DNA from: Sphingomonas sp. HMP9
Lineage (GTDB): Bacteria; Pseudomonadota; Alphaproteobacteria; Sphingomonadales; Sphingomonadaceae
Assembly: GCF_013374115.1 (NCBI RefSeq)
Contig: NZ_AP022673.1
Coordinates: 648,501 to 712,500, forward strand
Direction: 5' to 3'
Length of the DNA stretch: 64,000 nt
Position 1 is the stretch's first letter, and the number at the start of each line of letters is the position of its first letter. The notes beneath the pieces are model-generated. The model saw only the letters and a program-made list of their open reading frames with translations, made no database searches and was not told the origin of the DNA. Made by a program: the position numbers and the translations under genes. Of this stretch, positions 1 to 47,405 are shown one piece after another.

Positions 1-416
1 GCGATCTCGCCGGGATAGCCCAGCACGATCATCAATGCGGCCGCCGTACCGAGCCGCACGGTCTTCGACGAGGTCTGCTCGGGCGACAGGCGCATCACGA
101 GCACCAGCTCGATCAGCAGCAGGGGGACGGTCAGCAACCAGTCGACGTAGCGATAGGCGTCGTTGAATGCGAAGCCGGTAGCGGCGATGACACCGTCCTT
201 GAGCACATAGGCTGCGTTCCAACTCTCGAAGATGCGCAGGTAGTGATAGGCGGCGATCGCGGTCACCAGTCCGGATATCGTGACCGCGGTACGATAGGCA
301 GGCGACACTTGCGATCGACACAGCCAGAGGAACGCGGTTGCCGCGGCCATCGTCGCGAAGGTGAACGAGAACGCGTTGTAGACCAGCGAGAACTGGAACG
401 GGGTCAAGATATCCAT
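1..416 (-). CDS. proton-pumping rhodopsin (proteorhodopsin/xanthorhodopsin type), 3' part outside window
   Basis: Retinal-binding light-driven proton pump of the inner membrane, running off the left edge; 138 codons (helices A to D) are visible. Helix B carries His58 in AYHYLRIF, the conserved counterion-partner His. Helix C reads YRYVDWLLTVPLLLIE: Asp92 is the proton acceptor, Thr96 the middle residue and Glu103 the proton donor, giving the DTE outward-pump motif. The residue at the spectral-tuning position is Leu100, which in proteorhodopsins means green absorption. LGYPGE in helix D is typical of the xanthorhodopsin branch. ATG at 416 is chosen because GGAG sits 6 nt before it; an in-frame ATG at 428 is the alternative. 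The gene follows the LOV-HTH regulator on the same strand after about 280 bp. The retinal Lys (helix G) and any carotenoid-site Gly are outside the window. Confidence 0.93.
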   Translation of the reverse strand, partial: MDILTPFQFSLVYNAFSFTFATMAAATAFLWLCRSQVSPAYRTAVTISGLVTAIAAYHYLRIFESWNAAYVLKDGVIAATGFAFNDAYRYVDWLLTVPLLLIELVLVMRLSPEQTSSKTVRLGTAAALMIVLGYPGEI

Positions 417-654
417 AAACGTCTCCATCGCCTTGCTGCGCACTGGCCCGCTACGGTGGCTGGCCGGCATTGTTGCGGGGGGCGAGGCCGATGGACGGAT
501 CGGTTCGGGCCTCCCGAGGATGGCGCCACAGCGACTCCAAAGGGTATCGGAGGGAGTTCCACCCACGCCGCGAGCCGTTGGCTATTACCGCTCGTGACCT
601 AGCCGCTGTGACGGCCGGTCCCTGCATACGACCGGGCCGGATGCGTCACGATAC

Positions 655-666
655 GGTCCTTGGCCC
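655..666. promoter_or_regulatory. candidate EL222-type operator upstream of the rhodopsin gene
   Basis: GGTCCTTGGCCC matches every position of the palindromic consensus RGNCYWWRGNCY reported for the LOV-HTH factor EL222. It lies 35 bp beyond the stop of the local EL222-like gene and about 240 bp upstream of the rhodopsin start. A hand estimate gives roughly one chance match per 12 kb at this base composition, so a hit in this 280-bp gap is suggestive but not proof. No confident -35/-10 pair was found downstream of it. Confidence 0.45.
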
Positions 667-675
667 ATACCCGCT

Positions 676-700
676 CCGGCTAGCACTGCTGCTACGCCGG
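676..700 (-). terminator. hairpin after the LOV-HTH gene
   Basis: CCGGC TAGCA ctgc TGCTA c GCCGG forms a 10-bp stem with one bulge, directly after the LOV-HTH stop codon. There is no T-run on the minus strand after it, so it may be a weak or factor-assisted terminator, or an mRNA-stabilising hairpin. It separates the regulator transcript from the rhodopsin promoter region. Confidence 0.4.
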
Positions 701-1345
701 TCAGAGCCCGGCTTCGACCGCCAGCCGGATCAGGTTCGCGGTCGTCGTCAGGCCGAGGCGATCCATCAGGATGGCGCGGTGCATCTTGACGGTTTTCTCC
801 GCCAAACCGAGCTCCGCGGCGATCTGTTTGTTGAGCAGGCCCTGTGCGACGAACTTGAGCACCTGTCCTTGACGTGGCGACAGAGCTTTGACCATTTCTG
901 CGGCACGGATCCGGCGCATGCTGGTCGGCGGTGCCGCGTTGGTATCGATCTCGATCTGCGAGCCGAGAAAATACAGCAGCCTGTCCTCGTCGTCGTAGAG
1001 CGGCGCCACCAGCACGGCGTTGCGGAACGGTTGCCCATTTCGCTTATAGTTGAGGATCTCGACCAGCACCGGCTTGTGCTCGCGAACGCCGCGGCGGATT
1101 TCCTCGGACAGCCAGGGCTCGGTCCCGGGCCCCGACAAGAAGCGGCAATTGCGGCCGACGACCTCGTCCGCGGGGTAGCCGGTGAGATCGCAGAATGGTT
1201 GGTTGCAGGCGACGATGGGATTGTCGGGCAGCCGTGGATCGCTGATCACCCCCGGGATCGGGCTGTCGGTAACCAGCCGCATGAATCGCGTATTGACGCT
1301 CGCCAACGCGGAGCCAGTCGACAGACTATCAATGGTCATGCGCAC
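701..1345 (-). CDS. blue-light receptor LOV-HTH transcription factor (EL222-like)
   Basis: One-component photoreceptor. Residues about 22-135 form a LOV (PAS) domain with the flavin-adduct motif GRNCRFLSG, photoactive Cys67, and [17 protein letters not shown] and FLGSQIEID as in EL222 of Erythrobacter. Residues about 152-212 are a LuxR-type HTH (LSPRQ...[19 protein letters not shown]). At 214 aa it is close in length and alignable almost end to end with EL222 from memory. In that family, blue light forms a Cys-flavin adduct, releases the HTH and lets the dimer activate transcription. The start is GTG at 1345; an ATG two codons later (1339) is also possible behind a purine-rich stretch. It lies upstream of and in the same orientation as the rhodopsin gene, the obvious candidate target. 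Confidence 0.93.
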
Positions 1346-46907: not shown

Positions 46908-47405
46908 TTGAGTGACCAAACATCGTCTGCCCCTGTCAGGGATCTTGCGCTCGCGGTGTTCGAGACGAACGGCCGCTTGGTCGATGCAGGCAATGCGCTG
47001 GTCCGTCCGATCGGCCTGACGACGGCGTGGTGGCAGGTCCTGGGGGCTTTGGGCTTTTCACCCCATCCGCTCCCGGTCGCGCATATTGCCCGCAACATGG
47101 GGCTGACCCGGCAGGCCGTGCAGCGTGTCGTCGATCTCCTCATCGCAAATGGGCTGGTTAGCCAGCAGCCTAATCCGCACCACCAGCGCGCCAAGCTGAT
47201 CGTCCTTACCGCCGTCGGCTGGGCTGCACTTGCCGGGGCCGAGACAGCCGTCGCCCCGCTCGATCAGGCTATCCTCGATCGGATCGGCACCGATCGGATC
47301 GTCGCAGCCATTGCCGTGCTTCGCGAAATGAACGCAGCGATCGCCGACAGCCTTTCACCGATGACGGACGCTGCCGCACCCTCAACGCCCAAGGATATCG
47401 CATGA
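46908..47405 (+). CDS. MarR-family regulator
   Basis: 165-residue winged-helix repressor: PLPVAHIARNMGLTRQAVQRVVDLLIANGLVSQQPNPHHQRAKLIVLTAVGWAAL holds the recognition helix (TRQAVQRVVDLL) and the wing (NPHHQRAKLI). The start is TTG at 46908 behind AGGA. Its stop overlaps the start of the flavin hydroxylase gene (ATGA), so it very likely controls that enzyme in response to an aromatic or drug-like ligand. Confidence 0.9.
   Translation: MSDQTSSAPVRDLALAVFETNGRLVDAGNALVRPIGLTTAWWQVLGALGFSPHPLPVAHIARNMGLTRQAVQRVVDLLIANGLVSQQPNPHHQRAKLIVLTAVGWAALAGAETAVAPLDQAILDRIGTDRIVAAIAVLREMNAAIADSLSPMTDAAAPSTPKDIA

Follow-up and report, generated by a model that had tools for sequence, protein, structure and literature searches.

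At the start of a 64,000-nucleotide stretch of the Sphingomonas sp. HMP9 genome (NZ_AP022673.1, positions 648,501 to 712,500; hereafter the window), the gene for an EL222-type protein, in which a LOV photosensory domain is joined to a LuxR-type helix-turn-helix (LOV-HTH), lies directly upstream of a xanthorhodopsin (XR) gene. We consider it likely that the LOV-HTH protein is a local blue-light activator of the XR operon. This reading is based on the conservation of the gene pair among relatives and on a copy of the EL222 binding consensus that stands at a constant distance from a -10-like element ahead of XR. A conserved structured RNA, which would form the leader of the operon, lies between the operator and XR.

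Formation of a blue-light-induced Cys-flavin adduct, release of the HTH, dimerisation and DNA binding are traits of EL222 and, by analogy, would be expected of the window protein. The dimer would bind the palindrome at 651-670, which lies a short way ahead of the -10-like element, and, judging from this position, recruit RNA polymerase. Transcription would run from about position 616 through the 5'-terminal structured RNA into XR, blh (retinal synthesis) and a crtI-family gene (carotenoid), and a blue-light sensor would in effect switch on both a green-light proton pump and the supply of its pigments. P1, the closing helix of the RNA, may stabilise the transcript or act as a riboregulator.

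The regulator and the xanthorhodopsin operon

The LOV-HTH product (214 aa; ORF 701-1345, minus strand) contains the Pfam domains PAS_9 at residues 40-132 and GerE, the LuxR-type HTH, at 154-209. Its top matches in the PDB were both EL222 sequences (3p7n, E=3.6e-84; 8a5r, E=1.5e-83), aligned over residues 22-214, and identity to the EL222 core was 66% over 191 aa. The photoactive Cys motif GRNCRFLSG is retained, and all 49 tandem or divergent homologues examined also carry the motif (GRNCRFL in 36, GRNCKFL in 12 and GRNCWFL in one). A Cys-bearing LOV/PAS domain, a C-terminal LuxR/GerE HTH, similarity across the core and the consensus RGNCYWWRGNCY at the presumed target together place the window protein in the EL222 family.

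Both genes lie on the minus strand, with 284 bp between the LOV-HTH stop and the XR start codon, and GGAG sits 10 nt ahead of the XR ATG at 416. The first-pass annotation of this DNA had described an EL222-type protein with its photoactive Cys and whole-length similarity, upstream of a rhodopsin gene in the same direction, and had marked positions 429-1345; all of this stands, the range covering the intergenic region and the LOV gene.

The complete XR gene (L013:9653-10417, minus strand; 255 aa) is the sole Bac_rhodopsin match in its genome. Its product is xanthorhodopsin-like (3ddl, E=1.6e-77; PF01036, 135 bits), and the translation shows VDWLLTVPLLLIE (D..T..E) and ADIIAKAG, which we take to be the pump residues and the region of the retinal Lys, respectively. 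Together with similarity to Salinibacter XR along its whole length, these residues class it as a proton pump. A carotenoid antenna is putative, the Gly of LWGTLSSIPF aligning with LWGFLSTIPF of 3ddl. In the whole genome, XR is followed past the window edge by blh (TIGR03753, 130 bits against a cut-off of 95) and then by a crtI-family desaturase gene (TIGR02734, 532 bits against a cut-off of 238).

Predicted operator and promoter

EL222 is described as dimerising in light, binding DNA and activating transcription with its operator upstream of -35 (passages of PMC9614035 and PMC10521638), and its binding consensus is given there as RGNCYWWRGNCY (PMC10521638). Three exact matches occur in the 64-kb window, one in the core of the palindrome between the two genes (Table 1) and the others at 47044 and 47931. 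When the 300 bp upstream of XR were searched at 79 loci, the exact consensus was found at 16, against 1.06% of 2827 tiles taken from other parts of the same loci and 1.1% of shuffles; with at most one mismatch the count was 46 of 79, against 21.5% of the tiles and 23% of shuffles. At tandem loci, it reached 33 of 37.

The conserved form of the operator is ATACGGNCYWWRGNCCGTAT, at least 14 of its 18 positions being matched in 45 of the 79 loci. Among these 45, the 34th base from the operator centre is A in 43, and bases 33-34 read TA in 33 (29 of 35 tandem loci; 4 of 10 in the other classes). Taking this TA as -12/-11 puts the operator centre near -44 and the transcription start near window position 616. 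An extended half-site, defined here, is exact at five XR genes without a nearby LOV gene (L164, L166, L209, L210 and L211), against 0.42% of tiles.

Within the HMP9 genome itself, the pattern of the window site gave 7 matches at 5 places with up to two mismatches, against 9 control matches; with none or one, it was found only at the XR operator, which is circular, and at a site 3' of a LOV paralogue. A position weight matrix (PWM) was built from 24 boxes of the genus. Outside the XR upstream regions, it reached at least 15 bits at 10 sites in 1.82 million positions, all on the opposite strand and 2.9-4.9 kb downstream of XR. Autoregulation of the LOV gene through an operator of its own was considered and set aside, as no PWM match of at least 8 bits lies upstream of that gene in the window.

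Table 1. Features at the XR end of the window (window coordinates)
Feature	Position	Strand	Remarks
Xanthorhodopsin (XR) gene, 5' part	1..416	-	ATG at 416; continues past the left end of the window
Conserved structured RNA, predicted 5' leader of the XR operon	519..617	-	P1, P2, covariation
Parts of the RNA		-	P1 arms ~601-613 and 524-536; inner hairpin P2; CUCCCUCC at 549-556
-10-like element TATGCA	623..628	-	T is the 33rd base from the operator centre; predicted start ~616
Putative operator palindrome GTATGGGCCAAGGACCGTAT	651..670	-	core 655-666 is exact RGNCYWWRGNCY
EL222-type LOV-HTH gene (PAS/LOV + LuxR-type HTH)	704..1345	-	GTG start 1345 or ATG 1339; stop 701-703

Conservation of the gene pair

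Two collections were surveyed, namely 295 genomes of the genus (cut-offs E<=1e-20 for rhodopsin and E<=1e-60 for LOV-HTH) and a named collection of the best 80 of 386 XR loci, some of which come from the same genomes; close relatives are included in all counts, which makes the p-values optimistic. Rhodopsin was found in 38 of the 295 genomes, 36 of them in the XR clade (at least 70% identity) and two distant (29%) and left out of the XR-clade counts, while LOV-HTH genes were found in 69. Comparison of coordinates shows a same-strand LOV gene directly ahead of XR in 25 of the 36 XR-clade genomes, with a gap of 241-318 bp in 24 of these (the 25th being G178). A LOV gene is present anywhere in 35 of the 36, against 34 of the 259 other genomes (Fisher p=5e-25, with genomes treated as independent).

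The best 80 named loci divide into 37 tandem, 12 head-to-head (divergent), two with LOV near and 29 without LOV nearby, although L192 begins at the XR gene and is not classifiable, and short contigs elsewhere may conceal a LOV gene. Tandem or head-to-head loci occur in Sphingomonas, Polymorphobacter, Sphingorhabdus, Brevundimonas, Erythrobacter and metagenome-assembled genomes (MAGs) labelled Novosphingobium, Caulobacter and others, although MAG labels are not always correct. Among 397 genomes from other genera of the family, 103 bear a LOV gene; 47 of these were searched for XR, which was present in seven and adjacent in six. Where XR is not adjacent, a LOV gene was found elsewhere in 17 of 20 genomes (20 of 31 such loci were searched), with a copy 2 kb away in L225.

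The pairing of LOV and XR is thus beyond chance, and adjacency, which the first-pass annotation had named first among the things to check, is conserved in many relatives. Across 49 loci, pairwise LOV identity is correlated with pairwise XR identity (r=0.80; 0 of 999 permutations), as would also be expected from shared descent alone. The pair as a mobile plasmid module was considered and rejected; plasmids hold LOV homologues of less than 60% identity on seven records and XR on two Polymorphobacter records.

Several observations weigh against activation of XR by the LOV-HTH protein. The two genes are not adjacent in 11 of the 36 XR-clade genomes (G014, G119, G264, G099, G274, G223, G144, G098, G226, G107 and G122), of which G014 has XR and no LOV gene at E<=1e-60. 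They are adjacent in G178, but the LOV protein there is 62% identical and no operator or RNA was recognised at its XR. Three of the 20 genomes with non-adjacent XR gave no LOV at E<=1e-45 (L171, L209 and L221), and L209 still has the extended half-site. The consensus with at most one mismatch is found in 2 of 12 divergent loci (under the tile rate), in neither of the two near loci and in 11 of 28 without LOV, so that operator support comes mainly from the tandem group; the best PWM score at divergent loci is about 4 bits, and the S. pituitosa group has no strong match. Finally, passages of PMC7762795 describe the XR of AAP5 as silent in all conditions tested, including 22°C liquid cultures, light-phase samples and a 12-h light/dark regime; its silence at 22°C in the light phase indicates that light alone is insufficient.

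Structured RNA ahead of the xanthorhodopsin gene

Alignment of 24 intergenic regions revealed a second conserved block, between the operator and XR. In its consensus fold, a helix of 13 bp (P1) closes the RNA around an inner hairpin (P2). Over 22 pairs in the 24 sequences, 92.6% of cells pair and 60 cells carry two-sided changes; the covariation score was 0.42, against at most 0.10 with one strand slid, and 0 of 500 shuffles reached any of five measures. As the predicted start falls at the foot of P1, the RNA would be a 5'-terminal stem-loop. An inverted repeat acting at the DNA level is disfavoured, since the sense strand of the window scores 77 bits against 16 for the antisense strand and the covarying pairs include many G-U. 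In Rfam 15, the best match of the window RNA had E=5.2, and nine further loci gave none at E<=1.

The XR of S. glacialis is reported to appear only in light and below 16°C. Speculatively, cold might slow the return of the LOV adduct to its dark state and so give rise to this dependence, the light and cold inputs being joined through longer-lived adducts in the cold; a fungal LOV receptor has been reported as a sensor of both light and temperature (PMC11061223). An RNA thermometer at the ribosome-binding site was considered and rejected. Predicted accessibility of the Shine-Dalgarno (SD) sequence stayed almost flat over 4-37°C (mean 0.18 to 0.19 in 24 leaders), so SD melting fails to explain the cold dependence.

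Searching the 295 genomes with a covariance model of the RNA (R1) gave 29 strong matches (E<=1.2e-7), spread over 28 genomes and comprising the 24 training sequences and five new ones; the next match stood at 4.4e-4, and 40 genomes in total had one at E<=0.1. At three of the new matches (G178, G108 and G230), LOV and RNA precede a crtI-family gene with no XR between, the gene in G230 being cut by the contig end. The G014 copy (L115) sits 13 kb upstream of XR in a genome that yielded no LOV gene. A second R1-type RNA in G049 (L116:6648-7043) adjoins an ORF that matches the C-terminus of LOV-HTH (62% over 45 aa), to judge from its sequence probably a decayed copy.

Among the best 80 named XR loci, 20 have a strong R1 match: 19 labelled Sphingomonas and L168, a record labelled Actinobacteria whose XR is 91% identical. 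The XR loci of Brevundimonas and Sphingorhabdus have no R1 at E<=0.01, and four close tandem loci lack a strong match, with 22.8 bits in L203, 19.3 and 16.3 bits in L165, and none at E<=1 in L174 and L227; at all these places the RNA appears dispensable for the LOV-XR pairing. CCUCC stretches are found in the RNAs of groups g3 and g90 and in most of those of g15, while many Sphingomonas copies have CCCUCG instead and the window RNA has CUCCCUCC. A C-rich loop motif of the CCUCC type presumably marks small RNAs (sRNAs) of the CcsR/cuckoo or GsrN-like kind.

Alternative explanations

It is quite possible, though we lean against it, that the primary target of LOV-HTH is the structured RNA itself, as a light-induced riboregulator with a C-rich loop, and that control of XR is secondary, through its position downstream. 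The native locus of EL222 bears on this. G519, which we take to be E. litoralis HTCC2594, encodes a protein 100% identical to EL222; two consensus sites, GGGCCAAGGTCC and AGGCCTAGGCCC, lie there 48-92 bp past the stop of this gene in the gene direction (L283:8683-8735), and one further site lies 3 kb off within the 18 kb inspected. In four genomes of the EL222 genus (L253-L256), the consensus site past the LOV stop is followed by an RNA hairpin with invariant UUUCCUCCUGUCCCUCCCGAAGCG and by a terminator-like hairpin that ends 162-172 nt from P1 and, in two of these genomes, runs into TTTT. In the three annotated genomes (L283, L284 and L286), the gene beyond is convergent. The terminator-like hairpin and the convergent gene point to a light-induced sRNA.

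A C-rich RNA with a closing helix also lies 3' of the operator in g15 (10 of 11 loci aligned; double changes at 6 of 14 pairs) and in g90 (9 of 9 loci; 12 of 23 pairs), and in an automatic search the distance between the operator centre and the closing helix came to 37-48 bp in 8 of 10 and 7 of 9 loci, respectively. The remaining g15 locus, L317, has neither operator nor RNA and was excluded from the alignment. Of 49 LOV loci of the family, which are high-scoring or hand-picked and not a random sample, 25 have an operator matching at least 14 of 18 positions within 110 bp past the LOV gene, against 1 of 777 tiles (0.13%) and 0.41% of shuffles; the other 24, including all three of g55, do not. 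The RNAs of the different genera are alike in position and style, but they are predicted transcripts and their sequences are not alignable. The RNA ahead of crtI-family genes in G178, G108 and G230 favours the RNA as target, while L120 has LOV and crtI and no R1 match. The Brevundimonas loci combine operator and XR with no R1 match at E<=0.01, and L165, L174, L203 and L227 likewise have no strong one, which indicates that XR can be a direct target.

It may well be, although we would stop short of calling it probable, that several Sphingomonadaceae genera share a module of LOV-HTH and an operator-driven RNA with a C-rich loop, serving as an sRNA in the EL222 genus and as the XR/crtI leader in Sphingomonas. 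If so, the RNA of the EL222 genus would be an sRNA in its own right, induced by light, and would probably be what EL222, now in wide use in optogenetics, natively targets; in Sphingomonas, the blue-light signal would drive a riboregulator with anti-SD-like loops and a proton pump together.

Repression of XR by LOV-HTH in blue light is improbable. EL222 can repress from an operator placed between -35 and -10 (passage of PMC9614035), but the operator here, centred some 44 bp ahead of the predicted start, is nearer to the activation layout of pBLind, with the operator upstream of -35. We give similarly little credence to adjacency as mere inheritance without regulatory meaning: many loci are closely related and the correlation of LOV and XR identities fits shared descent, whereas the pair occurs in two orientations and several genera, and the tandem group keeps both operator and spacing. 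The proposal in PMC7762795 that XR works with a partner histidine kinase in a pathway for light sensing is very improbable, because the XR neighbour in S. glacialis CGMCC 1.8957 (L156) has Pfam matches to PAS, to GerE and, below the cut-off, to sigma-70 region 4 and none to a kinase, because the blue-light histidine kinase model NF052306 matches this protein and that of the window at 127 and 129 bits against 450 and over the LOV part only, which would explain the published kinase label, and because light is reported to have raised ATP production and yield in the XR-bearing strain without bacteriochlorophyll (passage of a review, PMC12306673).

Relation to known systems

The window system resembles that of EL222 (Erythrobacter litoralis HTCC2594) in domain order, core identity (66%), photoactive Cys, EKTVKMHR in the HTH and operator consensus, and both have a consensus site just downstream of the regulator gene. 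It differs in that G519 has no XR at E<=1e-40 and that the next gene is convergent there. To our knowledge, the native role of EL222 is unsettled, and the operator and RNA described here offer a candidate for its native output.

In the AAP5 XR cluster (Kopejtka 2020, PMC7762795), blh, XR and a blue-light gene likewise lie together and are syntenic in some Sphingomonas; the passages in question call the light gene a histidine kinase, propose XR as a sensor and mention no operator or RNA. By analogy with S. glacialis CGMCC 1.8957, this "histidine kinase" (E2E30_05035) is very probably a misnamed LOV-HTH protein, which would correct the label behind the idea of a kinase-coupled rhodopsin. The first-pass annotation knew of no description of the pairing; as neighbours, however, the two genes were already in print (PMC7762795), very probably under that wrong name. 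Its interpretation of the region is supported in part, by the adjacency and by an EL222-consensus operator at fixed spacing from the -10 element, but it overlooked the structured RNA between the genes. Among the matches listed from the open-licence PMC literature, none links a LOV-HTH regulator, its operator or the adjacent RNA to a rhodopsin operon. The present reading provides a concrete, testable mechanism for the timing of a rhodopsin pump and names candidates for the sensor, the operator, the start site and the leader.

A LOV protein also controls phototrophy genes in Dinoroseobacter shibae, where LdaP, by contrast, is described as an antirepressor of PpsR on the photosynthesis gene cluster (PMC10890935). 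Among alphaproteobacterial sRNAs, GsrN has a stress role and an exposed C-rich 5' loop; GsrN and CcsR differ from the system described here in being driven by the sigma factors EcfG and RpoHI/HII, respectively, and not by a LOV regulator (passages of PMC5869019 and PMC10253847). No gsrN-like gene is apparent in E. litoralis according to PMC5869019, in the passage cited. The window RNA, having no Rfam match, suggests that a new light-controlled riboregulator may exist in well-studied genomes.

Further observations

A second LOV-HTH gene in the HMP9 genome (L014:8546-9184, minus strand; about G000:C1:3038545-3039183) is 86% identical to the window copy. The operator is kept 3' of its stop, a Mutator-family transposase gene starts about 160 bp further on, no R1 RNA was found at the locus, and the neighbours include BLUF and GGDEF/EAL genes. 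We regard this paralogue as an orphaned switch.

A conserved block around AAAACATGGTATAAAGG.TAGGTTG, located about 106 bp ahead of XR, recurs in head-to-head loci (L182, L183, L187, L194 and others) and is perhaps a diverged operator or a core promoter.

Operator-like sites on the minus strand were seen 2.9-5.1 kb past XR at L149, L150, L151, L152, L155, L156, L161, L163, L165, L208 and L227. Of the six annotated loci with such a site (L156, L150, L163, L227, L152 and L149, the site of L149 scoring 11), five have it ahead of a convergent fasciclin gene followed by an FAD amine-oxidase-like gene, and L150 has the FAD gene alone. These genes matched Pfam Fasciclin (129 bits, L149) and Amino_oxidase (L149 and L150), the other four loci being judged by eye. 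To judge from sequence, the fasciclin/FAD unit is probably a second target of the light regulon. In G519, a good EL222-type site lies directly ahead of a DUF2383 gene (L336; G519:C1:821966).
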